DNA from: Moniliella sp. 'wahieum'
Lineage: Eukaryota; Basidiomycota; Moniliellomycetes; Moniliellales; Moniliellaceae
NCBI GenBank assembly: GCA_003971905.1
Contig: RSEE01000142.1
Coordinates: 62,001-126,000 of the forward strand
DNA: 64,000 nt
Direction: 5' to 3'
Position numbers and translations under genes: made by a program. Below, in pieces: positions 2,841 to 34,213 of this stretch. The notes under the pieces are model-generated. The model had not been told where the DNA came from. It did not search any database and saw only the letters and a list, made by a program, of their open reading frames with translations. How positions within the stretch are numbered: the first letter of the stretch is position 1; every line of letters starts with the position of its first letter.

Positions 2841-2935
2841 GGCAATGTGCCCGAGCGGTTAAGGGGATTGATTCGAATGCGCTTCGAACTATCAATTAGG
2901 CTTTGCCTGCACAGGTTCGAGTCCTGTCATTGTCG
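2841..2935 (+). tRNA. tRNA-Ser(CGA) with 13-nt intron
   Basis: The 7-bp acceptor stem pairs 2841-2847 with 2928-2934 (one G-U pair). The D-arm holds the box-A-like word TGCCCGAGCGGTTAAGGGG, and a long variable arm (about 2897-2909) marks a class II tRNA. The T-arm (2911-2927) is canonical. The anticodon stem ATTGA/TCAAT encloses TTCGAA, giving anticodon CGA at 2874-2876, which reads UCG serine codons. Thirteen bases (2878-2890) sit after position 37, where eukaryotic tRNA introns lie, leaving an 82-nt mature tRNA. A T7 run follows directly and should terminate Pol III. Confidence 0.93.
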
Positions 2936-2941
2936 TTTTTT

Positions 2942-3999
2942 TGCCTCGAAATAGCAGCGTGGAAAGAAAGCCACGAAGACAGCGAGTTGGATTGAGGTGA
3001 TTGTATGGTGCACAGAGAGGCGGGTCGGCGAAAAGGAATGTTATTAGGGCCTACACGGCCCGCGGAGGACCGGTGAACTTGGGCCTTGTTGAGTTGAACG
3101 CCAAAACGTATATAATAGACTTGAACGTAAGAGTGGACTCGGCTGAATCGAGTCACCAGGGATGGAGAGGAACTACATTTTACGCTCAGCGGAGTGAGTC
3201 ACTGAGCCCCACGATTGAACTCACTGCCGGTACGCGTTTTTTCGTCAAAAGGGATAGAATGATCTTTGGGAGGGTAGCGCACCATGCCCACCAATGCTGA
3301 AACTGAGTATAGTAGTGTTCCGTAAAGCTCTCAGATGCAAGCGCACGAAACGCGTTTGACGTACATGGGAAATTCTTTTCGCTCTCTATTTGGTAGCTAC
3401 TTGGTATGGTGTGTGCGGGTGGGCGCGGCCCGAGAAGAGGGAGGAAAAAGGAGAAAGGAGCAGGGCCAGGGTCAGGAAGGAGAGGCATGGGCGGCATGGA
3501 CATGCGCATACTTGGCAGGGGGGAACATCAGGACTTCTATAGGGAAAGAAATGGCGGGGAGGCACTTGGGGTCTGGTCAAGTGCTATGAAAGAGATGAAG
3601 AAAAGAGGTAAGCACCGAGTACTGGTGAGTGAAGAGTAGGGTAGCACAAACATTGGCAAATGGACATATGTGTCAAGGCAGGAGGCAAAAAAGGGTCACG
3701 GGGGTAAACGTAGATGTGAAAAGACGGTAAGGGTGGAAACGGGAACGGCAAGGAAGAAGGTGCGGAAGGGATGGGATGCGTGGTGGTGGTGGTGGCGACG
3801 GACGGGGGGAGGGGGTATGACGGGAGGGCGAGGAGGTCAAAGGCCAGCCTCACATGATCCCATGGTTTTGGTCGGGAGTAAAGGGGACGTATGACTGGTT
3901 CCGTCAGAAGAGGGAGAGGACTCTTCACTGGACAATTCGTGGCACAAGATCGAACGGGCGCGTACCGTCGGGCCCGAGGGCAACGGCGAGAAAGCAGGT
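2942..3999. other. intergenic, no clear gene
   Basis: The stretch lies between the tRNA and a doubtful gene. It is purine-rich on the + strand from about 3420 to 3800. The minus-strand frames here are proline-rich and unlike any family I recognise. They may include the 3' end of the doubtful gene to the right. Confidence 0.4.
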
Positions 4000-4922
4000 T
4001 CCCGTCCCATCGTCCGTGGAGGGTGGGGGAGAACGTGGCTCCCCGTGCCCTGCGACTGGTGGGGAGGGGCGGAAGCGGGATTTGAGGCGGCGGCGTGGCG
4101 GCCAAATGGGGTGGTAGGTCATTGAAAAAGAGCAAATCCGTCAAGCCCGTGACAGAGGTGAGGTTGGTTATGCTGGGACGACGGAGCGGGGAGAGCGGGG
4201 AATAAAACGAGCTTGCCTCCGCCACCTCAGGAAGGGGCGGTAGAGCCGGAGCCGAGCCGACTGTTCGTGCCCGTGGACGGCCGCCTCTCCACATCTCTGT
4301 TTGCTTGGACAGGCCCCTGGCCCTCCCCTCGTACGGTGGATGGGGGAGACAGCTGCCCCGGCTCTCTCGCGCAGAGGAAGATACAGCTGGGCCATGCTCT
4401 CCTCCAGGGAACGGAGGGCAGATTGGGTGCGCTCACTGGGCCGCAGCTGGGGGGAGGAGGCAAGCTGAAGCAGGCCGAGGGTGGTATCGCTCAGAGGAAG
4501 GAAGGTGCGCTGGCGCGGGGTCTGGCTGGCTGCGTCTTCGGGGGCCAGTTCGCTGTGCCCGTCGTCGTCGTCTTTAGGCAGGAGGGGCAGGGCATGAAGA
4601 GACAAGATGGGAGAGGGTGGTTGGGCACCACCGTGCCGGGCGGCACGATGGACTGAGAAGGCGGGAAGAGGCGGCAGAGGAATGTTGGGTGGCCCGCCAG
4701 GGAGCGGAGCGGGGGAGGTGAGGCAAAGTCGGGCGGACGCTGGGTGGGGTGGGAGATGGATGCGCTGCGGCGGTGGGGGGTGGGGGTGGGAGTGGCAAGG
4801 GGCATGGTGGGCTGTTGTGGGCAGGCAGGGACGAGGGGCGTGTGGGTGTGGGTGTGGCTGCGGCGGCGCTTGACCTGGGCGACAAACTCGCGGCGGCGGC
4901 GCAAGAGCAGGTCGGCGTCCAT
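4000..4922 (-). CDS. possible hypothetical protein, frames broken
   Basis: A minus-strand start at 4922 opens MDADLLLRRRREFVAQVKR, written in the G/C-ending codons typical of this window. Convincing pieces continue in shifting frames: a Ser/Pro/His-rich part, an acidic DDDDGH stretch, then LSDTTLGLLQLASSPQLRPS and a helix-like SLEESMAQLYLPLRER, and finally SPLRRPSITNLTSVTGL around 4220-4100. I do not recognise the family. The frame changes match those seen in certain genes elsewhere, so a real gene with small indels is possible, but so is GC-rich non-coding DNA. Both ends are guesses. Confidence 0.3.
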
Positions 4923-5086
4923 GCCAGCGAGCGGGGCGGGGAGGATGGTGGAAGGGGGGGGTGTGGCGGGGAGGAGCGCCAGCGGCGTGCGCATCCAGGA
5001 TGCATCCACGCAGCTTGTCGCGTGTGCTGCCTTCGAAGACACTCTGTTGTTGACATGGGAAGGGGTCCTGTCATGTCACATGTCAC

Positions 5087-7460
5087 CGGTCACCGGCCAC
5101 ACCACTGGCCCTGTGCCGATGCCGAGGGTGGATCGCCGCAGGCCGGCGTGCATAAATGATGCACATTGCATCCCAGCGCATGTGCGGCTCCCACGTCAGC
5201 GTCAGGCAGCTGCAGCCCAGCGCCCGGCCCTGCCCGGCCGCGCCCGATTTGCCGCAGGCTGCCAGGGGACAGTCGGGAGAGTGGGAGGCCCTTGCACGGG
5301 ACACTGCGTCCTGCATGCGCACTGCACTGGGCACTGCACGCGCACCGCACTGGCACTGCACTGGCACTGCCCTGGCGACCCAAGCTCCAACGTACTCCAA
5401 CGCTGCACATTGTGAATGGGTGACAGCGGTATGTGACAGCGTCGCACAAACAAAAAACAGCCCAATCGCGCCGGGACGAGACAGCAGGCACGCGCACTGG
5501 GGCAGCGCAGCCACCCACGCCCACCCGACGCCCACCCACGCCCGCCCAGATCCACCCCCTGGCGCATGCCCAGCTCCCACGCGCACTGACGTGCTTGCGC
5601 CCCCAGCCAGCTGGCTGCGGCCTACGCCACCCTGACTGTCATGTGCGGGGTACACAAGCGTACATGGTACACCCCCTGCAGCCCCCCCCCATGCGTTGCC
5701 CCACTGCTTTCCCAAGGCATGCACATTGCATGCAGCTCATGCAGGCCTTCCACAACGGCACCACTCGCCCGGTTCCCTCCGATCGCCAGGCGCCGGAGGA
5801 GGTGTCTCTACCACAGTCAGCACCGTCTGTGACATGCATGTGACACGGGCCATGTTAGAATCAGTGATCAGGATCATCGATCAGACCGATCGGGGATGGA
5901 GGATCAGCGATCGCATCTCAGGTACCAGCCAACCCAGAATCCCAGACCCAGGCGTCTTCGATCATCGACAGGCGGACCCCGGTCCGTGATAATGGGCGTG
6001 GAAACGCTCGGCATTTTGTCCGTCTACCTCTACTCGACTTTTTTCCCACCGATCACTAGTTCGTCCGCGCCCAGGCGCTCAGGCTGCCTCTCTATAAAAC
6101 GACTACGGCCTGTGAGATCGGAGATTTCTGAGGGACTCAGGGAAGCTTGAAGCTGGAAGGCTTGAAGTGAGGCCGCCTGGGATTGATTTTCTTCGAAAAA
6201 GAACAGTCTCATCATCGGTCCTAACCCGTCGCGGCTAGCTCCACGACCCTTCGTGTGTCCAGGGCACCAGCGATCAACGCATGGACGTCAGCACGTCAGC
6301 GCTGCGTCAGCACTCTGTATACTCTGTTCCTCCGTATACCGATTCTATGTGCTCTGCCATTCCTGATGAGGCTTTTGATGATGCATGGCCGGTGTTGGCA
6401 TGCATGAAAATAACCCCTCCACATTTTGTTTTTTGGTTTCCTTGGCGCCAAGGGCTCGTGGCAGAAACCGTATATAGCACCAGTGATGCATGGTGCATGA
6501 TGCAGATGCCCGGTGGAGGGAACTATAGAATGTGAGAGAGGGTATATCGTGCTCGAGAGGATTCCTCTGCGCGAGGTCCTCTTCTGATTGATCGGTGTCG
6601 CTCGCTTAGTGCGCTTAGTGGACAGAAGGGTTCCACTCGCACACCACTGCGCACGCTACGTCCTTGCTCTGCCGATCGGTCATCGCCGCTCTGTGTCTCC
6701 TCTGTCCTTCGCCTCAGATCAGTGTGCTTGAAGCTTGCAGGCTTGTGGCTGGCTCACCACCACGTTGCCTTCGCGCCTTGTCGGGGGCTCTGAAGGCCGC
6801 TCTATACTGCAGCTGAACCCACATAGGATCCCCGAGTGCTCCCTCCCAACTTGCTCTCTATAGTAGACTGCATATTGAACCATGCAGCTTATAATTGTGC
6901 CCCACACAGGACAATCCCTGCGGTTTCCCTTCTCTTTGTGGAAGCCCCTTTTTTCCCACCGTTTGCCCCCATCGGTTATGCAGAAGGCGAATATATAACG
7001 CTGTACTGACAACCTTCCCGACGGAGGCCGAGGAGAAGCCAGCCCTCTGGCACGTCGAGCAAGGGGACTAGGGCGTAGGCTCGAAGCACGAGGAGCTTCG
7101 TTGCAAAGAGTCGTTGTCCCTATGTCTTGGCTATTAGAGGTATCCTCCTGGGGCTGAGTGCTATAGCGAGTCCGACGGTGTCGAACGTTGAGGGAGGGCG
7201 AGCCCCATTTGGCTGAATCCGCCCCCAAATTAACCGATGCAAGAAGTTGGCCGCTCCCATATAAAGACGCTGCGGTGGTCCTGAACCGACTTTTTAATAT
7301 AGGAGTTGGGCGCATTCTACAAACGCCTTTTGGCCTTAGCTGGTGGGGTCGAGGGGCACTCCTTTTGACTCTATTACCACGTAACTAACATAGGCACAAC
7401 AGGGCTGATGGAAGCGAGACTCCTGTCGAGAGGCATAGAGCTTGTTCTCCCAGAGTCGAG
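5087..7460. other. intergenic, repeat words only
   Basis: No gene is supported. It contains iterated GCACTG words (about 5318-5375), GTCAC/GTGAC words (5060-5100 and 5420-5440), a GATC-dense cluster (about 5860-5930) and TGCATG words (6370-6510). A 198-codon minus-strand frame (6719-7315) is rich in Arg and Ser, has no recognisable motif and shows no gene-like codon bias. Confidence 0.5.
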
Positions 7461-8500
7461 TCAGAACCTTGTACACGAGAGCCGGATGTTCCTCCTCGGT
7501 TCGCAGCATTGAGCGGTTCCATCAATAAAACCAACCACACTCCTGCGCCAGGCCTTGGGACCAAAAGCCACGGGGAACATCGGGTTCATCAAAGACATGA
7601 ACGTCGCCGGCGGATTCTTCGTGGTCAGGCCGTTGTTCATAACAAGGTTCTCGGAGGCGCCCATCGTTGTCACCAAAACAGTCTTGGGAACGTGCCCCTC
7701 CAATACACAACCCAGATTGAAAGGGCCTGACACAGGTCAACATGTGAAGCAAATATTTTCGTCCCGTGAAGGTTGTCCAAAGCAACATCTGCCAAGAGCA
7801 GCAAAGCAACCTGCTTCTTGACAGATGCCAAGTCCAGACCCTGGTAGTTAACCACGAGAGTTATAGATCGTCCGTCTTGTTGATGTAGAACACAGGTGGG
7901 CCCTACGGTGAACGAGACCGACGGATGCATCCTCGTTGAGGTTCTCCTTGATCCAAAACAAGCCCAGTGGTCTTCGGCCTCGTCTGGGGTCAATGGGCAC
8001 GGAGGTGAGAAAGTTGGATTGGCACCGTCTTGGGTCTCAATGGCGTGGTCAAAACCTGGCCGGTGAGGGGTGAGGAGGCAAACAGTTGGCTCGACGAACG
8101 GGAAAGCCGTCAGGAAAGTTCCTCTGTACCGCTGGGGCAGTTCGCATGTGATAGTCACTTCGTCCAGGGCTAGGGTATGCTCGGGGAAAGGGGGAAAGAG
8201 ACCACTTTGTCCGTGCAAGGGCGAGTCACCTCCACCGTTGACGACTGGGGCAGAATTGACGCGTCGCTGTGGTTCTCGGCAACCACTGCGAGGTTCAGGG
8301 AGGCTATGCCGCCAATCTGTGCGTCCGGGTCCTCCTCTTGCCTTCAGACATCGTTTCCTCCCCCGCTCCGAGGCGTTCGCCAAGGCTACAACTCGCCTCG
8401 CTGAAGCTGCCAAGCGCATATAACACTATGCCAGCAATCAGAGCCTCTCCTGGCAGCTTCACTGGACTTGAAAGTCAACAAGAATGTCTATAGAATTACC
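7461..8500 (-). mobile_element. Ty3/Gypsy-like reverse transcriptase fossil
   Basis: Read on the minus strand, this stretch carries pieces that resemble the reverse transcriptase of Ty3/Gypsy LTR retrotransposons, in the expected order. An early block contains the words DGRSITLVVNYQGLDL and VALLLLADVALDNLHG, and a later block contains PPATFMSLMN. The copy is broken, with at least several disruptions. No flanking LTRs, RNase H or integrase could be recognised, so only an internal remnant survives. The material just to the right (up to about 8820) may be more of the same element but is too decayed to assign. The absence of ends and the decay suggest an old insertion. Confidence 0.6.
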
Positions 8501-9068
8501 GGCTGGACTTTTATCTTGGGACCTCTCCTCAAAGTGACCTCTTCCTTTGACCTGGCCTTGTCGATGGCCGCTCCAAACCCCCAGAGGGGCTGGCGCTGGA
8601 TATTGCCGACGGTCGGTAGACCTACCGTGTCTAGATGCTCGACTGTCGCCGGGACAGAAGGACCCACTTGTACTTCGTTAACTGGACGGGGTTTCCCGTC
8701 AACCCAACGAGTTGGTCCCAGCTTCTGAGCTCGGCCACCGAGCTCCAGGAGCGGTTGCTTTCCATCGTGACCACTCAGATGCTCTGATCCTTGTTCCCCC
8801 ATATCCCGTCGAGAAGTAGACAAGTATACCTACGCGTAGGCAAGAAGCGTAGTAAGGGGGGGGGGGGGGTAAAGCCACGGGCCGGCGACCACGCCGCCTT
8901 GCACCCAGCTACACTGCATCTACTCCCTTTTCTTTGTTCCCGCTTATCGTCTGTTGTTTCATATACCATTTCTCAAGTTCTCTATCTTTCGCTATCGTTC
9001 TCGCTATCTCGACTCGACTTCTCGTCCTCACCACGTAACCCACACCAATCGTCTCTCTGAACCGCGCC

Positions 9069-15414: not shown

Positions 15415-18400
15415 ATGTCGCAGAGCTCGGTGTTTGGCGCTGCGCCGCCGCGCCAGCGCTCCCGCCTCAGCTTCAAGGGCAAGCTCGCCAGCAAGGGCAT
15501 CAGCACCGACCGCCTCCTCCGCGACCTCAAGACCGTCCAGGCCGAGCTCGCCCAGATGGACCAGGACGACGTGGACCTCGACTCGCTCCTGCCCATCACC
15601 AAGCAGCTCGTCCAGCCCACCCTCATGCTCCACAAGGACCGCGGCGTCAAGATCGCCCTCGCGTGCTGCCTCGCCGATGTCCTGCGTCTCTTTGCGCCCG
15701 ACGCGCCCTACACCGCGCTCGAGCTGCGCGTGCGTACCCCCCCCCCCCTAGCTCGCGTCGCGTGTGCGCACTAACCCCCCCCGCCGCTTCCCCCACAGGA
15801 CATCTTCCAGTTCTTCATCCACGAGCTCACGCTGCCCGCCAAGACTGGCCACGGCTTGGCTGTGCCCCAAGGCCCGCGCTACTCGGACTACTTTTATCTC
15901 GTCGAGTCCCTGAGCACCGTCAAGTCGATCGTGCTTGTATGCGACCTGAATGGCGCGGAGGACATGATGACCGACCTGTTCCAAGGCTTCTTTGAGATTG
16001 TCTCGTACGTCCTTGGCTGCGGTGTGTGTTGATGCGGGTCTTTTTGTGTGTGTACTTACTAGCCCCGGTCCGCGCTGCGCAGACCGACGATGGCCAAGAA
16101 CCTCGAGATCTGCATGGCGGATATCCTGGCCCAACTGGTGGACGAGGCGCAGCAAGTGCCCGAGCCGGTCCTCGAGCTCTTGCTGGTCAACTTTAACCCC
16201 AGGCGATCAAGGCCAATCCCGCCGCGCACAATTTGGCCGTGCAAGTGTGCCAGGCGGCCGAGCACCGGCTGCAAAAGTATGTCGCGCACTATTTTACCGA
16301 TGTCATCACCTCGTCCCTTGACGATGAGCAGGACCGGAACGAGCGGGACGGCAACCTGACCCGCACCTACACGCTCATCATGGAGATCAACCGTTCCGTT
16401 CCGCCTCTTTTGCTCAACGTGGTGCCCCAAATGGAGGGGGAGCTAACGTCGGAAGACCAGAGCTTGCGCTTGATGGTCACGCGCGTGTTGGGCCAAATGT
16501 TTGGCGAGCGTCGTTCGCTCGCTGCGGCCGGCTCAACGTCGGAAGGTCTGGCAGAGGGCGACTTTGCGCGGACGTACCCGGGCGTATGGAAGGCGTGGCT
16601 GCGCCGTGCCAACGATAAAAGCTATCATGTGCGCATTGTTGGCTCGAGTCGGCCCAGGGCATCCTACGCTACCACCCTTCGCTCGTGCCCGATATGATTC
16701 CCATCTTGACGCAAAAACTGCTCGATCCGGATGAAAAAGTGCGCACGATTGCGGCCCGTGTGCTGGGCAGCATGGATTACGAAACGGCACTGCATCGGAC
16801 GCCCAAGGTGCTGCTGGAAGCTCTGGCGGAGCGGTGCATGGACAAGAAACGTACTGTGCGGGAGAATGCAATGAACGCGCTGGGCCGCCTATTTCACCTT
16901 GCCTTCCCTGAAATCGAGAGCCACGACCGGGCGGCATTGAGCAATTTGCCTGGATCCCAAGTGCGGTGCTTTCCGTGTTGAAAACGTCGGATGTATCACC
17001 AAGATGTGGCGGATGTGGTGGAACGGTGGATTTTGCCCTTCCCTTCGTATGGGCTGGGCTCGAACCAGACCAAACTCCGTTCCTCCCAGTCCTCTTCCCA
17101 AGGTTCGAGCCAGTCCCAGAGCCTGACGGCCGGCGTGGCGTTTACGGGGCAGCAGATGAATCGGCCTGGGTGGGTCGGCTGCTGTTGGTGCTCAAGTATG
17201 GGGATGGGTTTACCAAGTCGGTCATCTTTAAGCTGGGCAACCTGGTCGAACCGCTGAGCATCTGGGCCCGGTTTGTCGATGCGTGTGAAGCGTACAATGG
17301 GGGCACGATGGACGAGGACGAAGTGCGTAAGAAGCAGGAGCTCAAAGTGTTGCTCAAGGCGGTGGCCAAGGTGTTGGGGGAGCAACCGGGGGCGGATAAA
17401 GTGGCGAGTGAATTGCTCGAGTTTGCACGGATGAATGATCTGCGTGCGTACCGCCTGTTGCGGGTCAGTATGGACCCGAAACAGGACATGAAGAGTCTGC
17501 TCAAGGCGCGCTTGGAGCTGCGTCGTCGTCTCGAGGCCAACAACAAGTCGCTCGTCCCGACCCTGATGCATTTTTGGCGCGGGGCCAGTTTCCCGCTGGT
17601 CAACCGCACCACGGTGAGCCAGTTGCTCAAGGGCATCCAGCAAGGCCGCCTGGCTCGTCGGCCGCGAGCCAGGCCAGTGCCGATTCCCTCTTGCCCCTCG
17701 GCCCCAACAAGGTGAGCTTGGCGGGTACGAGGTGTTTGTGGAAAACGCGACGGCCGTCTTGACCCAGGTGACCAAGTCCCACCCCACTATGCTCATTCCC
17801 TTTGTGCCCGAACTGATCCGGATCGTTCGCGATGGCGAGGCCAGTGGCGACGAGAACCCGTATGCGACGACGGTGGCGCTGCGTGCGCTGGCGGTGATTG
17901 CTCGTGGGGATCGACAAGCGACCAAGTTGATGCGCGAGCCCAAGGCCATCGACGCCCTCTGCCATTTCGCCCTCGAGGGCCAAGTGGAAGAAGCCAAGTT
18001 TGCCACCGAGACGCTGGCGGCGATGAGCGAGCGCGACACGTTGCTGCGGCAAGGCGAAGGTGCGGCGCGGTACACGGCGCCCGGCGGGGCGCCGCTGGCC
18101 AAATCCGATCTGCTCACCGCGCAACACGCACTGCACACGTGCTCACTACGATTTCCGATCAACTGTGTGGTACGGGAGGGCAAGTTGGCCAGTCACCTGG
18201 CTGCGCTCCTGGCTTTGGTCAAGTACGCGCCCGATGTATTTGAGGACCGGGCCCAGTCGATCATCAAGGACGTGCTGGCCGCAATCAAGCGGCCGTGGAT
18301 GGAAGTGAAGGACGAGGCTGGCGGCATGCGCGCGGTCCAAGCCGAAGAGTGGATGGAGGAGGAGGAGCAAGAGGAGTGGGTCGAAGCGGAGGATGTGGAC

Positions 18401-19590
18401 GACAATACGCGGTCGCGCATGCTGGGCTTGCGGGTGATCACCAAGCGGGCCGAGGTGTATGCGCATACCGAGCACGCCGAGATGACCGTCAAGCCCATCT
18501 GCGGTTTTTGTACCATGCCCTGGGCGCCGGCGAAGTGGACAGCGCCACGGGCGAGCCCAAGAAACCGAATGCGTTGCCTGCCATGCCGGGCCACGCGCGC
18601 GCCTGGCTGCGCTTCACCTCGGCCGCCTGCCTGCTCAAGTTGGCGCGCCACAAGGCGTATGCGATGCTGGTGACGCGCCAAATGCTGCCGTTGGCATTTG
18701 TGGTGCAAGACCGAAGCTTTGGTGTGCGCAACCTGTTCTTGCGCAAGCTGTGCGCCTACCTCTCGTGCAACAAACTGCCCCCGGCGTTTTATGCGGTCCC
18801 TTTCCTGGTTGCGTTGGACCCCGAAGAGGAAAACTTGCATCTGGTGCGCTACTTTTTGCGCAAAGTCATCTGGGGCGTCTCGACCGCCCAACGGTTCAAG
18901 ACGGTGGAATACACCTTTGCTCGCTTCCTCCACCTGCTTGCGCACCACCCCGACTTTCACCGGGAGGACGTGACGGAAGCGCTTCAGTTTGCTCGCTATG
19001 TCGACTTTTACCTGACCAGCGTGGCCAACGAGGAGAACATCAATTTGTTCTGGTACATGTGCAGCCGGCTCAAGACGCTTCGTGCGGCAGACAGCGTCGG
19101 CGCAAGTGAGAACTTGTATGCGCTGTGTGAGCTGGCGCAGCTGCGGATCAAGCGCAAGGCACTGTCCAATGGCTGGACCATTGAACCCTGGCCGGGCAAG
19201 GTGGCGATGCCCTCGACATTTTCCGTCCCTTGCCCAACAAGGAAGTGCAGAAGGAAATTTACTCGCGGCAGTACTTGCCCGAGGTGGTGCGGCGGCTGAC
19301 GAGGACTTGGACCAAGTCTCCAGCCGCAAACGGCCGCCGGCCGAAAAAGTGATTGACCTTCCCAAACCAACCAAGACGTCCCGCGCGCTCGCGCTCGCCA
19401 GCCCAGCCCCACCGACGATTCGGACGAGGAGATGGAAGAAGCGCAAGAGCAGGCTGAGGCCACACCCAAACCCACGCGGGCGCGGCCTAAGCCTAGGGCG
19501 GCCAAGGCCACGGCCTCGCGCGCGGTCGGCGCTGCGGACGAGGTTCCGAGGACAACGAGGAAGAGGAACAGGAGGATGAAGATGAGGGGG

Positions 19591-19622
<32 letters not shown>

Positions 19623-19681
19623 CGGAGAAGGAAAGCAATCCGCCTCCTGCGAAGCGCGCGCGTCGGGCTGGGCGCCGTTGA
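15415..19681 (+). CDS. PDS5: PDS5, cohesin-associated HEAT-repeat protein
   Basis: The ATG at 15415 opens MSQSSVFGAAPP. The family hallmarks follow: LLRDLKTVQAELAQMDQDD, VDLDSLLPITKQLV, HKDRGVKIALACCLADVLRL and FAPDAPYTALELR. Intron 1 is 15730-15798 and intron 2 is 16005-16082. After them come FYLVESLSTVKSIVLVCDL and MAKNLEICMADILAQL, then HEAT-like helices to the end. The tail is acidic then basic (PPPAKRARRAGRR, stop 19679-19681), about 1,370 residues in all, normal for the family. Pds5 binds the Scc1/Wapl parts of cohesin and regulates its loading and release from chromatin. Roughly ten small frame slips interrupt the long last exon, for example one missing A at 16200-16202 in an otherwise perfect match. 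Confidence 0.88.
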
Positions 19682-19916
19682 ACCGAGAACCGATCTGATC
19701 TACGTTTGGGGTCTATGCGTCTATGAACCCGGTGGGCTGTCCTTGACTCGGCCGAGGAGGCGCTTTTAGTTGATACAATAATGAACCCGTTTTAAGCAAA
19801 CAAGAAAGAAAGGCTACAGACCCCGCGCGTAGCCGACACGCGCCATCCCACAGACAGACGCGCCATGCCGTGCCATCCACTCTACCCCAGGCCAGGCTGA
19901 ACTGATTAACCACTAC

Positions 19917-24131: not shown

Positions 24132-26649
24132 ATGGCTCCTTCGCTCGTCTCGACGCCGCCCCGGCGTCCGACCCCTTTGTCCGCCGCCCCCTGCACGCCG
24201 TCCGCCGCGCGCCCGCCCCTCCGCCCCCGCCCGTGCCCGCGACGACACGGCCGCCGCCCAGAGTCTGCGCGCCCAGTTCCCCGACCAACTGCGCCAACTC
24301 CGTGTGCTCTTCCCGACTGGTCCGATGAAGACCTGCTCTTTGTCCTCGGCGATGCCGGCGGCGAGGTCGAGGCCGCCGCCGGCCTGATTGGCGACGGCTT
24401 TGCGACCCAGTTTGCCTCGGTCAAGACCCACCCCCCAAGAAAGAACCCCGGAGGGCACCCTGTTCCTTCCTCCAGCCCCGCCCCTGCCTCGGTCGCGCGT
24501 GCCGGCCGGCCTGTCTCCTCGGCTGCCGGCCGGGGCGGCGGCCGGGCCGGCCGCGGGGGCCGTCCCCAGGGCCCCGGAACCAAGTCGAATGCCTCGTCGG
24601 ATGGCAAGACGGCCGCTGCACCTGCACCTCCTGCATCTGCGCCCGCCCCCAAGCCCGCCGCCTAGTTGGGCCGACAGGATCAAAACGTCGCAGGCCAACA
24701 AGGCCGCTGCCGTGGCCGCCGCCCGTGCATCGCGCGCTGCGGCCCAAGCGTCCCATGAGCCCCCCAAAGCGGACGATGCACCGCAAGAGTGCCACCGAAG
24801 ATGCGTTCCCGCCAGTGAACGAGTCGGCGCCCTCGTCTTCGTCCCCGGTTGCGCCTGCGGTGCCGCCTGCGGCGACAGGCGACGCTGCATCCAAGCCCGC
24901 TATGAGCTGGGCCCAGATCGTGACCCACCCCAAGCCGCTCCCGCCGCTGCGGCCCACGAGGAGCCGCGCCCTGCCGAAACGGAAGCAACCGAGGCGACCG
25001 AATCGCACGAGACTGCACCCGCCGCCGCCGAGATTGCGCCGGAGCACGAGGCTGCCCCGCTCCCGAGGCACAAGAGAAGAACCGGCCCCTGCCGCTGCCC
25101 CCGAAGAAACCGCGGGAGCCGAGTCAGGGTCTCAACCCCACCCCGAACCCCTCCCTGAAGTCACTGAATCTGCTCCGGAACCTGCTTCGGAGCCCGCGCT
25201 AGCGCGGCGCCCGAACCGGAACCCGAGGCGGTGCAAGAAGAACCCCCCAAGGCATCCTCGCCTGCACCTGCACCTGCACCTGTTCCTGCCCCGCTCCTGC
25301 TGCTGCTCCTGTCTCTGTCTCTGCCCCCCCCAGCGCCAGCAGCCGCTGGAGGAGCCATCAAGATCCCTGCCACGCGCAAGCAAGCCCAGCCGCTCGTCAT
25401 CCCCGGTGGTCCTGCGTCGCTGGAGAGCTGGGTGTGCAGTTTGGTTCGTTGGGGGTCGAGTCGGAGGCTGCGCTGCGCTGGCTTCCGCTGCGCCGACTCC
25501 CGCCGCTGCCGCTGCACCTTCTCGGCCGCTGCCCTATGGATGCGAGCGCAGCTGTCGAGCCGCCGCGTGGCGCGGCGCCTCCCGGTGCGGCCTCGTTGCC
25601 GCCCAACCCATTGACAGGAGCGCCGGCCATGCCGACGGCCGCGCCGGGCCTGTACGACCGGTTCCATCCGTCGTTTGCGCAACCTCCGCATGCGGCGCAG
25701 CCGGCGCGCAGCGGCTGCCTCAGCCCCCTCCCGTGCCCACGCCCAATGGTGCCTTTGCCACCCGCCCATCCCGACGGCGCAGCCCATCCGCCGACTGGGT
25801 TTGAGGGGTACACGGGGTACGGGTTCCCCTCGGCGCCGGCCCCGACGGCAGCCACGGCGCCGTATGGGCTGGGCGCGACGCCGGGCGCCCCCTGGCGCGG
25901 GGCCGACCCAGCCGCCGCCGCCGCCGGCCCAGCAAGAGTACGGGTACCAAGGGCGCGATGCGCGCAACCTGAGCCACTTTTACGGCGGCGCGTACGACCC
26001 CAGTGCGCTGCACCTGCGCGGGGAGGACAAGGCGGCCGGCGCGGAGCCGGCGGCAGCCGTGCCGGGGGCAGCGGTGCCGACGCCCGGACAAGCGGGCCCG
26101 CCGACGCAGCCGCCGGCGCAGCCGCAGCAGTACCCGGGCATGATGCCGTACTTTTACCAGCCGTACTACATGCCGAACCAGTACCAGTACGGGCAGCCGG
26201 GGTACATGCCGGTGTATGGGCAGGGCCAGCCGCAGGTGGGCAAGTATGCGCCGGGGCAGGAGGGGGGCTACTACGCGACGCCGGGCACGGAGTTTGGAGC
26301 GGGCGGCGGCGGGGCCGTCGGAGTACAGCAACAAGCGTACCAGCCGGGGCTGCTGAAGCCGACGGCGCCGGCGGCGGGTGCGGGCGCGGGCAAGTCGTCG
26401 CCGGCGCTGGCGAATGCGGGGCTGGACTACCGCTTTGACAACAAGGCGGGCGCGGCGCGGCGGGGCGCGGGCGCGGCGGCGGGCGCGCTGGAGCAGGGCA
26501 CGCCGCGCTCGACGCCGGCCAGCGCAGCGCGCGCCCAGCCGGGGCAGAGCTTCTACCACTACGGCTACAACCAGACGGGCTACGGCTCGTACCCCTACAC
26601 CTTCCCGCAGGGCAACGCACGCGCTGGCGCCAGGCCTGAGGGCACGTGA
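24132..26649 (+). CDS. DEF1: DEF1-like CUE-domain protein (Pol II degradation factor)
   Basis: The CUE domain sits near the N-terminus: SLRAQFPDQLRQLRVLFP, then DWSDEDLLFVLGDAGGEVEA and AAGLIGDGFATQFASVK. The two halves are in different frames because one C seems lost from a C run near 24314. An RG-rich patch (AAGRGGGRAGRGGRPQG), a SWADRI/SWAQIV pair, acidic Pro/Ala stretches and SLGVESE follow. The C-terminus is a Tyr/Gln/Gly/Pro low-complexity domain with YPGMMPYFYQPYYMPNQYQY. This CUE plus prion-like layout is that of fungal Def1, which promotes ubiquitination and removal of stalled RNA polymerase II. There are several frame slips. The stop at 26647-26649 is 190 bp from the next gene. Confidence 0.78.
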
Positions 26650-26839: not shown

Positions 26840-29148
26840 ATGTCCCTCGCCTCCCCCGCGCCCACCACGGCGCCGTGGCCGTCGGCGACAACTACCCCGT
26901 CGTCCCCCCTGCCCTGCCCTGCCTGCGCGCCACCACCGTCCCCGCTCTCCACCGCACCCCACTCGGCGTGCCCGCCGCCCCCCTCGCGCCCGCCGCATCG
27001 GGAGGCGGGTGGGTGCCGAGCGTTGGGCCGTCGATGGCGTCGGTACCGCTTGGCTTTGGTCCGGTTCCGTCGCTCGGCCCCGACCTCGCCCTCGCCCTGC
27101 CGCCCGCGGCGAGCGGGGTGGGAAGCGGACTGCCACTGGCTGAGCCCAGTCCCGCACCTGCGTTGCTTGCTGTCGATGCGTGCTCGACGTTGGAGGGCGA
27201 GGCGCGGGCGCAGGCGACGGCCATCATCCACTCGCTCGTCACTGCCGCCTGGCAGTTGGGTTGGGACCGGACTACGGTCGCCAGCCGGATCACCGAGCAA
27301 CTCAATCAGCGCCTGGGCCGCTCTTGGTCGACGATCGTCGGGCCGTCGTTTGCGTTTAATGTGCGGGAGCGGCCGCACAGCTTGCTCAACCTCCGTACGT
27401 GTGCGCCTCGTTGATTTGCTTGTTGCGTGTATTGTGTTGTGTTGTGTCCTGTTGGGCAAGGGTTGACCGTGTACATACATGCGTGACTAGGGATTGGCGA
27501 CTGGTGGGTGGCCGCGTGGAAGGGCGAAGAGGTGGGCGTGGGCAAGTCGAACAATAAGGAGGTGGGAGTGTACCGTGTCAAGGGGATCCAGACCGAAGTG
27601 AGCAACAAGGTGATGGAGGTGGTGCGAGAATCGATGGCGCAAGCGTCCCTGGTCGGTGCCGAACTTACCTCGCACATTCTCCAACGGCTTCACCAGCTCC
27701 TCGGGCCCGGCTGGCACCTGGTACCCGAGACGAATGTCAGTCTCTACACGCAGTTCCCGTCGGCCTTCTGTTTCCGTGCGGGCGAACAGGATTGGACCGT
27801 GTGGAACGAGCGGGACGCCAGCACGCATTCCCTCGGCTCCCTCAGCACCCTTGCTTCCGGCATGGTCTTGACTGGGACCGGTGTCCGTGACGTGCGTGAC
27901 TTTAGTCTGTCCGGCTTGTCTGCCTCGCAGAAATCGTACGCCACGTCAGCCTCGACGACGCTGGTGCAAAAAGTGCAAAACTACGTGGCGAGCTACGCGG
28001 CACAAGTGCAAGCCGGGCAGGAACGGGTGCAGATTGGCTCGTCGCACATGACTGATGCGTCGTATCACAATGCGGTATTGGATGTTTCCCTGGCGGCGAT
28101 TGCCGAAGCTTCGGCTACGGTGGACAAGCAACAGACCACCACCCTTGTCACCAACCGTCTGCGTACCCTCTTTGGTCCGGCCTGGCACGCACACATTGCC
28201 ACCGACACCTTTGTGCCGGTAAATGCGCCGGCGCTGCAGGTGCTCACCTACCGTCTGGACGACAAGTTTGTTACGCTCTGGCAAGCGCAAGCCACCGCAG
28301 TGCAGACCACATCCGAACCCGAGATGGAGATGGGGATGAAGATGGGCCACGCCGCAGCCCTGCAGCACAATAACAATAGCAGCAGCCTAACGACCACCCA
28401 CCAGGCCCTGCAGCACAACAAGCCTAGTCTGCTCAAACAGGCAGCGGGAGTAGCTGGTGGAGCTGCGATGGCCGGGTTGGGGTATGGACTGTACAAGCAC
28501 CATCAGCATACCGACCACAGCGATCACAACCCTCCCCCCGCGCTCAGCCGGGATCTGGATACGGTCCACCAAACCCTCAATACCACCACACACATCCAAA
28601 CGGGACCCAGCACGACCAGCGTTGACGCCCCCAGCCCCGTGGCCGTTGGAACGTTGGCTGCGGCGCACAAAGCCATCCGGGTCGAGGAATCTACGCTGGC
28701 GGCAGCCGAGCAGGCCGTGCTGCTAGAGGTGGCGGCGGAAGCGGTGGCGTGGCACTCGATGGCCGCGCGCACGTTTGCGCTCTGGCTCGAGTCGGCGCTG
28801 AACCGGACGATGAAGTGGGATGGGTGGCACGTTGTGGTGGAACGGGGCGAGTTTGGTGCTTCGTCCTACTCGGACTACCGCGAGGCGCTGAACCGGATCC
28901 GGTTTCACTGGGACGACAAGTACGTGACGGTGTGGCAAGGCGCGCAGCCCACTGGCCGGGGCCGGGGTGTGCGTGGACGCGCTCCGCGCACCTCGGTGAC
29001 GGATACGTTTGTGTGGAGTGAGCAGGTGCCGATCGGGACGGATTGGACGTGGGTGCAGGAGGGGAGCTTGCCCCTCCCCCTCGGCAGGTTCGATTGCGGG
29101 ATCGGTGTGGGGCTCCGGTTCAGCTGGATCGGACTCGGGATCGGTTAG
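26840..29148 (+). CDS. multi-LC8-like repeat protein A
   Basis: Protein A has four segments that match the dynein light chain LC8 fold. Repeat 1 (27181-27528) holds VASRITEQLNQRLGRSWSTI and VGPSFAFNV, against LC8's [20 protein letters not shown] and VGRNFGSYV. Repeat 2 (27592-27816) holds LGPGWHLVPETN and WTVWN. Repeat 3 (28066-28293) holds FGPAWHAHIATDTF and VTLWQ. Repeat 4 (28681-28950) holds DGWHVVVERGEFGASSY and YVTVWQG. An intron (27395-27490, phase 1) splits repeat 1 before its last strand. An Ala/Gly segment and a His-rich tail lie between repeats 3 and 4. The ATG at 26840 needs one frame slip; the first in-frame ATG is 27034 (672 residues). Exon 2 is one clean 1.66-kb frame. Function is unknown; an LC8-type binding hub is inferred. 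Confidence 0.8.
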
Positions 29149-30229
29149 CTCATCCGACTTAGCGTCCTCGTCCAACTTTACAGCTTCCACCTGGTGGTCC
29201 AAGCTGTAGTCTCTATCCCTCCGAGTCATGCACGATGCGCTTTGCGTCATCTCGAGGAAACAAATGTCCCTCTCTCGCCTCTCTCTTCGCCCACGTCCAA
29301 ATCATCTATAGCCCCACAGGTTTTCTCCTTCCCCTGCCCTGCCCCGAATGTCATCACTCCTGGGCCACAATAGGGCGAATACATTTTGGTCAACTTGACA
29401 GCTTTTCTCACTGGTCTTCCTGGTCGCTTTGTTATCATCTCTCCCCCAGGGCCGAGAAGAGGTACAGTAATAGAAGTGTTGGTACAAAACGTCATATAGC
29501 GGTGTCGGTATAACCTAGACGGCTGTCCTGGCAAACTGTGAGTACCTGTCGAGGAGGCAGGCCGGGGACAGGCAGGGTGGACAGGCTCGTGTCTCCCTCC
29601 CCAAAACTCGCAGTGTGCTCTGTATGATTTAGGGGGGCTGGGTGGTGCGCTGCGGATGGCCTCTCGGGAGGGGGTCGAACACAGCACCGGTAGGGCAAGG
29701 CTTCTCTGCCCTGGAACGCTGGCCTTGTGCGAGCATATGTGCGATCCAAGAGGGGAGATGGGACGCGATCTATTCCAAGCGGTGGGGGTCATGAATATAT
29801 CAGTACTCCGTGGGCGGAGCGCACAGACTGGGCCCGTGCCCGCCAGGCGCCCAACGAGGCCGCCCACCGCAGCGGCTGTTTCTCGGCACATGTGGAGTGT
29901 GCTGGGGTGCCAGGGTGGCGCAGTGCTCCCACCAAGGAGAGATCCAAGAGCGGCTGACGTGCTGCCGTGCCAGCCGTGCGCTTTGGCTTCGCTTGGCCCC
30001 TCGTGCTCTCCTCTGCGAACGACCCCTTAGGCCGCACCCGCCCCCCCACCGCCAGCATACTAGCCTGCCCGTCCCCACCGGAAGATGGAAGCTTAAGCAC
30101 ACATCCTCTGGCCCCCAGCCCATCTCTCTCGTATCCGTTTTGCGCATGCGGTGGATTAGTAGCTGCTGTGCATCGTGCGCTCTTCTTGCTCCGTCGCTCG
30201 CATCCAATGAGAAATGAAGTTGAAGTGTC
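29149..30229. other. spacer between the two LC8-repeat genes
   Basis: This 1.1-kb spacer has no convincing gene. It is AT-richer than its neighbours, and all its frames are short and overlapping. Its right end holds the TATA box and a pyrimidine-rich leader (30250-30300) of gene B. Confidence 0.5.
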
Positions 30230-30238
30230 TATATAAAG
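30230..30238 (+). promoter_or_regulatory. TATA box of LC8-repeat gene B
   Basis: TATATAAAG lies 138 bp before the ATG at 30376 and is followed by a pyrimidine-rich tract, a usual arrangement for a well-expressed fungal promoter. Confidence 0.55.
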
Positions 30239-30375
30239 CCAAAGCACAAGCCTGTTCCCTTCCCCCACCCCTTTCCCGCAGCCCCTACCCCCTCTTCTTC
30301 CCACCGTTGCAAGCGTGACCACTCGCGCCCGTACCACCGCGCACGTCCCATCTACTGCCCCTCGCCACCATTATC

Positions 30376-32381
30376 ATGTCCTCCTCGCTTTCATCTTCGC
30401 TGTCCATCACCGTGTCCACCGTCGAGTCGACGGTGCAGGAATCGCTGACGTCGCTCGTCAGCGCCGCGCTAGCGCGGCTGAATGGCGCGCCGCTGCTGGA
30501 GCGCACGCGTGCCGAGCTGGCGCGGTACATTATCGCTACCGCCGAAGCGCGCCACGGACTGTTTTGGCACTTTGTCATGGGCAGTGACTGGGTGTATGCG
30601 TCGCACGAGCAGGCGAATGCGGCTGGGGCACGGTTGGAAGGCGTGCTGGAGTACCAAGGCGAACCGATCAAGTTTACCCTGTGGCAAACCAAGTGGACCG
30701 GCGCGGCGGGCGCAGGGGCGCCGGGTCCACCCCAGTTCACCGCCTCGACCCTCCCGGGCCCGATCCAGTCCCGCCTCGTGGTCCTGATCCAACAGCTGTA
30801 CAGCCTGCATGGCGCCCAGGCCGCCGCTCTCGCCCCCGTCTTTCTCGCCGACAACCTCAATGCCAGTTTCGGTTCGGGCTGGGTCGTCGTCGTCGGCACA
30901 GCAGCGGCGTCGTTGCAGAGCAGCGTGTATGCCACGTTTCGTACGTTTTTTTCATTCCATTTCATTTCTTGTCTTCTTGCCTCACGCCAACCTTGGCATA
31001 CACTGACCTCGCTTGCACCCTATCGACGCTCCTACAGAGATTGGCAAGGACGTGTTCACGCTATGGAAAGCCCCGGGCGGGAGCCAGGAGGAAGAGACTT
31101 CGGTGTACCTGACCGGGACGCGCTTTGTCCGCCAACAACCCATCCCTGCTCCTAGCTCCATCCTGACCCCTCGCAGTATCGACGTGGTCGTGCCCTCGGT
31201 TCAGCCCGTTCCGCAGCTGGCTCCCCAGCCGGTGGCTCCGTCTGTTTCTACAACGTCTGTTGTGGAAGTGCAGCAGGTTCCCCAGGTGGTGTACCAGCCT
31301 GCTCCTCAGCCTGCTCCTCAGCCCTTCTTCCAGCCCAGTCCGCAGCCTGCCCCGCAGCCCATCTTCCACCCGGCTCCCGCTCCGCAGCCGGCGCCTGAGC
31401 TGACCACCCAGGTGGTCCAGATCTCCCAGCCCGTTCCGCAGCCTGTGCCACGGTCTATCCCGCAGCAGCTTGTGCCGCAATCCAGTTCGCAAACGTTCGT
31501 GGGGGTGCCTGCGACGCTGGCTCCGCCTCCCGCGGTTCCGACGACGCAGACGCAGCAGTCCGAATGGTCCGAGCTGCACACTTCGATCCAACACTCGCTG
31601 GTTGTGCCCGAGGCGTCGGTGGACAAGCTGCGTTCGTCGATCGTGATTGAGCGTACGACGCTCGCTGCGTCCGAGCAGAGCCAAGTGATCAACCTTGTGA
31701 TTGCCACCTTGCTTCAGCACATCTCTGCGGGCAAGACCACGTCGCCTGCGGACTTGGCGGTGCTGAAGCAAACGCTTTCGACGCAGCTGGATGGATGGCA
31801 AGTGCTTGTCGGTCCCTACGGCTCGCACGTCCGTAGCGATGCCAAGAACCTTCTGGCGTTCTGTACGTTTTTCCCATACTCTTTTCTGCTTGCTATGGCT
31901 CCAGCCGCGTATTGACTCTGTGTGGGCAGCCATCGCGGGCTACTACCTCGCGCTTGTCCGCCCCTCGCGGAGCACCATCAAGGTGTCTCTCACGACGACG
32001 ACCGTGGGCGAGAAGGCTGTGGAGCAGGTGGGCATTGTGGAGCAGGCGGTGGATGGGCAACCGTCGGGCCAAGTCAAGGTGGTTGCCTCGGACTGGAAGA
32101 CGGCGAACGACCAGGTGTCGGCGCGCCTGTACGGGATCATTGGCGGCGCGCTCTTGTCGCAACAACAGCACCTGCTTGCCCTGGACGAGCTGGCGCACTA
32201 CCTGGGCCAGCGGGCCAGTGCCGCGCTCGGCGCCGGCTGGACGGCACAGGTCTCGGAGCAGCCGTTTGCCCCGGCCATCGCCTCGGTGTTGGGCGCGAGC
32301 TATGTTGTGGCGTCGGCGCAGGTGGGGGGCAAGACGTTGCACGTGGTGCTGTACCATTCGGCGCCGCGCCCCCATCTGTGA
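30376..32381 (+). CDS. multi-LC8-like repeat protein B
   Basis: Exons 30376-30940, 31038-31862 and 31930-32381 join to exactly 613 codons with no frame slip. Repeat 1 (about 30415-30697) ends IKFTLWQTKW. Repeat 2 (30748-31068) holds FGSGWVVVVGT and QIGKDVFTLWK. Repeat 3 (31605-31965) holds LDGWQVLVGPYGSHV, very close to LC8's WHCIVGRNFGSYV. Repeat 4 (32040-32375) holds LGAGWTAQVSEQ and LHVVLYHS. Both introns are phase 1, have GTACGT donors and cut repeats 2 and 3 at the same place, just before the last strand. A long linker (about 31090-31560) is rich in QPAPQP units and ends PTTQTQQSEW, with an LC8-type TQT motif. The gene is a tandem paralogue of gene A and lies 515 bp before ARP2. Function is not known. 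Confidence 0.85.
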
Positions 32382-32896: not shown

Positions 32897-34213
32897 ATGG
32901 CCGACGACCGCCCCCTTGTCGTCGACAACGGCACCGGCTTCGTCAAGGCTGGCTATGCCGGCAGCAACTTCCCCGCCCACATCTTCCCCTCCATTGTCGG
33001 CCGCCCCATCCTGCGTGTCGAGGAGCGCGACCATGTCGATGTCGAGATCAAGGACATCATGGTGGGCGACGAGGCCGCCGCCGTGCGCAACTATCTCCAG
33101 GTCTCCCAGCCGATGGAGCATGGTGTGGTCAAGGACTTTGCCGACATGCGCCATGTGTGGAACTACACCTTTGACGAGAAACTCAAGGTCGACCCCCAGG
33201 GCCGCAAGATCCTTCTGACCGAACCCCCGATGAACCCCAAGCGCAACCGCGAGGAGATGTGCCAGATCATGTTTGAAGAGTATGGGTTTGACGGCGTGTA
33301 TGTGGCGATCCAGGCGGTGCTCACCCTCTATGCTCAGGGGCTGCAGACCGGCGTCGTCGTCGACTCGGGCGATGGCGTAACCCACGTGGTGCCCGTGTAC
33401 GAAGGATTTGCTCTTCCCCACCTCACTCGCCGTCTGGACGTGGCCGGACGCGATGTGACGCTACCTCATCAAGCTGTTGCTGATGCGAGGCTATGCCTTT
33501 AACCGCACGGCCGACTTTGAGACTGTGCGCGAGGTCAAGGAAAAGCTGAGCTACGTCAGGTGAGTGCCCGCCCCCCTCACTCACTCCTTGCACACCCTCC
33601 TGACCCTTCTCACCAGTTACGACATTGCCATGGACAAGAAACTGGCTGAGGAGACGACAACACTGGTGGAGCAATACGAAGTATGCAATGCGGCCCCTTT
33701 CTCCCTTCTCCCCGCTCCCTTCTCGTAGCCAGGGCCCCTAATCGCTAACGGTATATTCTCTCTTCAGTTACCCGATGGCCGCATTATCAAGGTTGGTTCC
33801 GAGCGCTTTGAGGCACCGGAATGCTTGTTCCAGCCCGAGCTGGTCGATGTGGAGCAGCCAGGGATGGGAGAGCTGTTGTTTAACACAATCCAAGCTGCTG
33901 CTCTGGACACGCGTGCTGAACTGTACAAGCACATTGTGCTTTCCGGTGGTTCGTCCATGTACCCTGGTCTGCCCAGCCGTCTGGAAAAGGAGATGAAACA
34001 ACTCTACCTCACCCCGTCTTGCACGGCGACGCTTCCCGTCTGCCTGGCTTCAAAATCCGGATCGAGGACCCACCGCGTCGCAAGCACATGGTGTTCCTTG
34101 GCGGTGCGGTGCTGGCCGACATTATGAAGAACCGCGAGTCGTTCTGGGTCAGCCGGCAGGAGTGGTACGAAAAGGGTCCTGCGGCGCTGGACAAGCTAGG
34201 CCGTGACGCTTAA
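32897..34213 (+). CDS. ARP2: ARP2, actin-related protein of the Arp2/3 complex
   Basis: The ATG at 32897 opens [20 protein letters not shown]. Exons are 32897-33559, 33617-33680 and 33768-34213. The family marks are all present: [92 protein letters not shown] and the C-terminal [11 protein letters not shown]. With the two frame slips bridged, the product is about 390 residues, as expected. Arp2 with Arp3 seeds branched actin filaments at endocytic patches. The slips are near 33460 (two bases seem lost between DVT and YLIKLL) and near 34013 (one base lost after LYLT). An essential protein this well conserved is unlikely to be truly broken, so sequence error is likely. Confidence 0.93.

Follow-up and report, generated by a model that had tools for sequence, protein, structure and literature searches.

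Tandem Moniliella genes encode chains of LC8-like domains

Gene models and layout

We analyzed a 64,000-nt window of Moniliella sp. 'wahieum' (positions 62,001 to 126,000 of contig RSEE01000142.1, here C142, in a genome of 69.5 Mb and 223 contigs; GC content of the window 62%). It contains two genes, A and B, each of which encodes a chain of modules resembling the dynein light chain LC8. An earlier note, made from the sequence alone, had reported two neighboring genes here with about four LC8-like segments each; both genes are present, with modules A1 to A4 and B1 to B4, of which B4 is tentative. In the list below, bit scores are for each repeat alone against the Pfam LC8 profile (PF01221) and against leave-one-out profiles, which were trained on the remaining repeats plus canonical LC8; dN/dS is the ratio of nonsynonymous to synonymous substitution rates.

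27034..29149, + strand: gene A, exons 27034-27394 and 27491-29149 (with stop), 672 amino acids (aa); start uncertain
27178..27528, + strand: A1, split by the intron; PF01221 31.9 bits alone, leave-one-out 38.2 bits
27395..27490, + strand: intron of A, within A1, phase 1, ahead of the last strand of the module
27565..27813, + strand: A2; PF01221 16.0 bits alone, leave-one-out 27.9 bits
28039..28290, + strand: A3, LC8-like domain without a PF01221 match alone
28420..28509, + strand: hydrophobic segment rich in Ala and Gly, separating A3 from A4
28663..28947, + strand: A4; PF01221 14.7 bits alone (profile positions 4-85), leave-one-out 38.4 bits; nearest repeat B3 (Smith-Waterman z 12.9)
30230..30237, + strand: TATATAAA, read by eye 146 bases 5′ of the ATG of B; candidate promoter of B
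30376..32381, + strand: gene B, exons 30376-30940, 31038-31862 and 31930-32381 (with stop), 613 aa
30400..30696, + strand: B1; PF01221 17.0 bits alone; identity to paralogue 72%, dN/dS 0.2
30742..31078 (30742-30940 and 31038-31078), + strand: B2; PF01221 17.8 bits alone, leave-one-out 43.8 bits
31541..31579, + strand: TQT-type motif TTQTQQSEWSELH in the linker ahead of B3; the B paralogue (C29, C117) has VTQTQQAEWSELH
31634..31967 (31634-31862 and 31930-31967), + strand: B3; PF01221 15.7 bits alone, leave-one-out 35.7 bits
32070..32366, + strand: B4, tentative; no PF01221 match, leave-one-out 9.8 bits against 9.0 for the best shuffle

The single intron of A and both introns of B are GT-AG and in phase 1, and the reading frame of A is open once spliced. 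The earlier note had started A at the ATG at 26840, which lies in a frame different from that of the domains; the domain frame has its first ATG at 27034, where the copy of gene A on contig C68 has GTG. We therefore regard the start of A as uncertain and its 5′ end as unsettled. Because 1.2 kb separates the two coding regions and the candidate promoter sequence stands shortly before the ATG of B, we treat A and B as two genes.

LC8 homology of the repeats

Against PF01221, the spliced A protein scored 56.5 bits (E 3.8e-15) and the spliced B protein 38.0 bits (E 2.2e-9), each over three stretches and above the curated cut-off of 29.1 bits. Unspliced, A exon 1 reached 22.8 bits, A exon 2 30.1 bits and B exon 1 25.9 bits, and the other two B pieces gave no PF01221 match. 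With the leave-one-out profiles, each repeat was compared to 3000 shuffles of itself; seven of the eight repeats scored 27.9-43.8 bits, compared to 8.5-11.5 bits for the best shuffle. With a model built from six canonical LC8s only, none of the 3000 shuffles reached the score of the repeat in six cases, narrowly so for A2 (9.0 vs 7.8) and A3 (10.4 vs 8.9); A4 was reached by 11/3000 shuffles and B4 by 337/3000.

A profile of the seven repeats without B4 retrieved 43 sequences from the PDB at E ≤ 1, of which 42 are dynein light chains, Dyn2 among them, and the other is CaBP4, and hhalign matched the repeats to five canonical LC8s with a probability of 96.6%. A single-sequence search of the PDB with A1 to A3 was weak: of nine hits (best E 0.054), eight were to dynein light chains or CaBP4 and one was unrelated. 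The repeats are 13-24% identical to canonical LC8, in keeping with the earlier view that they are too diverged to be recent copies. By the profile scores of the spliced proteins, the shuffled leave-one-out comparisons and the PDB matches, seven of the eight modules are homologous to LC8 and are arranged as arrays.

Shared intron site and selection

In the canonical LC8 genes of C124 and C7, a phase-1 intron precedes the last strand (HFIYFY|LGDYAF). A phase-1 intron lies at this same site in A1, B2 and B3 of the window, and the site is also used in A1 on C18, in B2 and B3 on C117, in one unit on C67 and in one unit on C21. We resolved 10 of the 14 junctions sought, all of them in phase 1, the other four not being located by our script; 3 of the 10 also permit an alternative junction or donor that is less likely. 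By our own count, the split codon of 9/10 junctions lies nine residues upstream of the conserved Trp column (the C67 codon was not printed). This shared site supports a history in which the arrays would descend from an LC8 gene duplicated together with its intron.

To compare B with its paralogue on C117, we used the Nei-Gojobori method and took ratios from the printed values. Identities are 72% for B1, 74% for B2, 74% for B3 and 52% for B4, with dN/dS of 0.21, 0.23, 0.22 and 0.19, respectively; the linker, for which the C117 model holds doubtful introns, is 43% identical with a dN/dS of 0.71. The domains of B are under purifying selection, with dN/dS of about 0.2. Between A and its paralogue on C18, A1 is 42% and A2 39% identical, and their dN/dS values of 0.49 and 0.28 come from dS of 1.4 and 2.1, which are near saturation.

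A poly-LC8 family in the genome

A whole-genome PF01221 search of unspliced sequence at E ≤ 0.001 gave 16 matches. By reading, nine are canonical-like (C7, C124, C114, C28, C40, C71, two on C30, and C49), some of them in broken frames, and seven are divergent (three on C21, and one each on C36, C18, C57 and C67). Additional canonical-like LC8 copies were seen with matches split across frames.

Paralogues of A and B occur as a collinear A-B block on C68, as A-type genes on C18 and C9, and as B-type genes on C29 and C117; the A paralogue has three well-matching LC8 units and a weakly matching fourth. The earlier note had presented the pair as a tandem duplication, and although the two genes do stand in tandem, they are not an isolated pair and belong to a wider poly-LC8 family. 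The contig pairs C142/C68, C29/C117, C18/C9 and C21/C36 share roughly 85-96% DNA identity in gap-rich main stretches, and we therefore counted one A paralogue and one B paralogue. At the DNA level, the main coding stretches of C68 match those of the window at 94% for A and 96% for B, with 54 gap positions to 71 mismatches in A and 44 to 44 in B; first-look identities of 53-64% had been lowered by frame breaks. Such pairs are probably uncollapsed haplotypes or duplicate assembly, with one copy poorly polished.

Longer arrays were also found. The C21 gene has seven LC8-like matches, three clear and four weak middle ones (E 0.013 to 0.9), whose assignment draws in addition on their likeness to each other (75-89% to one of the four) and, in a single case, on the intron site; there are at least four middle units on C21 and at least three on C36. 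On C67 (stretch 1-8801) we counted 15 LC8-like units, several of them weak and with split matches counted once, within a block repeating at a spacing of 1447-1451 bases, a unit to which Tandem Repeats Finder with its period limit of 500 is blind. C57 has nine units by reading, possibly with a tenth at the edge, and over the aligned stretch it lacks about 2.96 kb relative to C67, equal to two blocks of 1.45 kb with three units each. These differences in unit number between contigs could reflect assembly collapse. The giant C57/C67 gene has a long N-terminal part rich in Glu, Thr, Val and Gln, and an Ala/Gly hydrophobic segment precedes several of its units; by eye, the C18, C21 and C57/C67 genes have segments resembling that of A. 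Elsewhere on C67 (366500-372500, at about 2938-3550), Pro/Thr-rich frames contain a further LC8-like match together with a second, weak one.

Smith-Waterman comparisons across repeats gave a z of 12.9 for A4-B3, 11.7 for A2-A3 and 12.4 for B2-C21a. Letters specific to the 15 aligned repeats relative to canonical LC8 include Ser-Thr for Val-Asp before helix 1 (9/15 and 10/15), Gly-Trp for Thr-Trp (10/15) and Thr in the last strand (11/15).

Client groove and linker motifs

The earlier note had proposed that such a chain would be a pre-assembled multivalent hub; the four modules per chain stand, with B4 tentative, whereas the hub role is conjectural, the groove residues being mostly replaced. 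We took the groove-lining residues of LC8 to be those of the GSYVTH strand together with the lysine that precedes helix 2. In trimmed-domain numbering, Gly58, Ser59 and Tyr60 are each kept in 2/15 repeats, Phe/Tyr57 is kept in 9/15 and Val61 in 5/15, and none of Thr62, His63 and Lys31 ranks among the most frequent letters. Judged by this alignment, the canonical client groove appears mostly replaced.

Excerpts of a review give the client anchor of LC8 as TQT, or IQT or VQT (PMC12017986). By shuffling, [TIV]QT is not significantly enriched in the linkers of A (p 0.06) or B (p 0.53) or in the N-terminal part of the C57 gene (p 0.34). A looser [TIV]Q[TVIC] pattern occurs three times in the A linkers compared to 0.72 expected, a nominal p of 0.04 for A only.

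An alternative that we consider unlikely, although it survives better than the others, is that the arrays are client hubs with working grooves, each chain gathering TQT-, IQT- or VQT-type clients and perhaps its own linkers or those of its relatives. The homology of the modules to LC8 is compatible with this, as are the nominal enrichment of the looser pattern and the VQT and IQT of the A linkers, both anchors in the review excerpts (PMC12017986). The TQT before B3 is retained in the paralogue when much of the linker is not, but it adjoins a conserved block and could have been retained for another cause. The replaced groove residues and the insignificant strict-motif counts argue against such a hub.

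Neighboring genes

Ten open frames of the window were scanned with Pfam: seven were unmatched, two had matches above the cut-off, and one had a Tn5 match below it.

17618-18670: PDS5, Pfam 74.4 bits
34250-35395: Utp12, Pfam 38.4 bits

The sub-threshold Tn5 dimerization match (18196-19791) lies on the strand opposite PDS5, partially overlaps it, and is probably due to chance. Downstream of B, at 32898-34127, is a gene that by reading we take to resemble actin-related protein 2. Upstream of A, at about 24329-26649, the frames are rich in Pro, Gln, Tyr and Gly (PGMMPYFYQPYYMPNQYQYGQ). The A paralogue on C18 is flanked by a similar stretch, which together with short DNA matches points to a segmental duplication that may have included this upstream region.

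Discussion

We favor, with a rough probability of 0.55, a reading in which A and B are chains of LC8-fold modules derived from an intron-bearing LC8 gene, their dimerizing modules making them cross-linkers or scaffolds. An LC8 gene would have been duplicated with its intron and expanded into the poly-LC8 family, in which A and B would each comprise four LC8-fold modules and low-complexity linkers. According to excerpts of the review, beta-3 of LC8 is unstructured in the monomer and is stabilized by beta-2 of the partner (PMC12017986). Dimerization, scaffolding and anchoring are what we infer for the arrays: neighboring modules could pair (B1 with B2, B3 with B4), or chains could pair with each other, to give covalently concatenated cross-linkers or scaffolds, and A might be anchored through its Ala/Gly hydrophobic segment. 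As the groove strand is mostly lost and the strict motifs are unenriched, we favor a scaffold over a TQT hub. A fuller proposal, which we offer tentatively, is that this organism may have derived from LC8 a novel class of structural repeat proteins, covalent concatemers with unit number varying between near-duplicate contigs, which may form a dynein-independent strand-exchange scaffold that is cross-linked or membrane-tethered.

Several results weigh against the repeats themselves or against this interpretation. Among single exons, only A exon 2 exceeds the PF01221 cut-off (30.1 vs 29.1 bits). The search of each repeat that the earlier note had proposed bore out A1 only (31.9 bits, one of eight); A2, A4, B1, B2 and B3 fell below the cut-off at 14.7-17.8 bits, and A3 and B4 had no match. 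Neither A nor B of the window is among the whole-genome PF01221 matches, and the leave-one-out score of B4 barely exceeds its best shuffle. A3 is predicted to have the LC8 fold, from an alignment that included six canonical LC8s, five of them full-length and one partial, and that may itself favor this fold. The beta-3 residues differ among the repeats, making the pairing a guess, and the inter-domain spacings in A of 12, 78 and 129 residues suggest no second module pair.

We also weighed readings that are less probable than a client hub. It is improbable that the chain substitutes for LC8 dimers stacked along the intermediate chain of dynein. According to excerpts of one paper, intermediate chains carry two LC8 dimers in yeast dynein-1 and three in dynein-2 (PMC10886578), and this genome has a dynein heavy chain; however, its heavy-chain matches are on two contigs only, ordinary LC8 genes are also kept, and arrays of 4 to about 15 units match no fixed stoichiometry. 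A genome search for radial-spoke proteins, which had no working positive control, gave no match; together with the two heavy-chain contigs, this offers no support for a ciliary role.

Less probable still is that these are decaying LC8 copies without function. Low identity to LC8 and the many frame breaks in the C68 copy would fit decay, but the frames in the window are open, the C117 paralogue of B is open across the domains with dN/dS of about 0.2, and gaps in C68 are about as common as substitutions, which fits poor polishing, with decay of that copy possible. Membership in another alpha/beta family merely like LC8, such as Tctex-1, is strongly disfavored and the least probable reading of all, even with seven of eight single repeats below the Pfam cut-off and B4 lacking an LC8 match.

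Comparison with known systems

In a library of 5.8 billion proteins, we found no relative of A exon 2 (E ≤ 0.001) or of B residues 1-215 (E ≤ 10); these two were the queries, with the longer arrays left out, and as the 8000 candidates sharing the most short exact words were scored, distant relatives could escape. With a profile including canonical LC8, the same library returned 12 LC8s, four of them organism-named and all four from what we take to be basidiomycetes, in keeping with a basidiomycete origin. In the open-licence literature (one library), we found no LC8 arrays and nothing relevant on expansion of the family in fungi, and did find LC8-type domains joined to EF-hands.

The latter are the trematode TAL/CaBP proteins, which, as far as the excerpted sources describe them, share with A and B an LC8-type domain within a longer protein, CaBP4 being among our PDB matches. 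They join EF-hands to a dynein light chain domain, whereas A and B contain several LC8 modules, and Pfam scans at E ≤ 10 showed no EF-hand in either. Tctex-1/DYNLT (PF03645) is a lower structural match than LC8; Pfam reported no match to it for A, B or the single repeats, and its one match in the genome is on C6.

With LC8/DYNLL/Dyn2 (PF01221), A and B share domain homology, the predicted fold of A3, a Trp-centered core and, within this genome, the intron site. In the review excerpts, LC8 is a hub formed by two small subunits as a dimer (PMC12017986). A natural LC8 chain would reveal what evolution does with a dimer made covalent and multiplied, here with a dynein light chain put to use as the unit of a repeat protein, and the arrays could serve as ready units to probe strand-exchange assembly and groove specificity. 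Whereas canonical LC8 is one domain of about 89 residues, A and B are proteins of 672 and 613 aa with four modules, low-complexity linkers and mostly replaced groove residues: a known domain in a new architecture.
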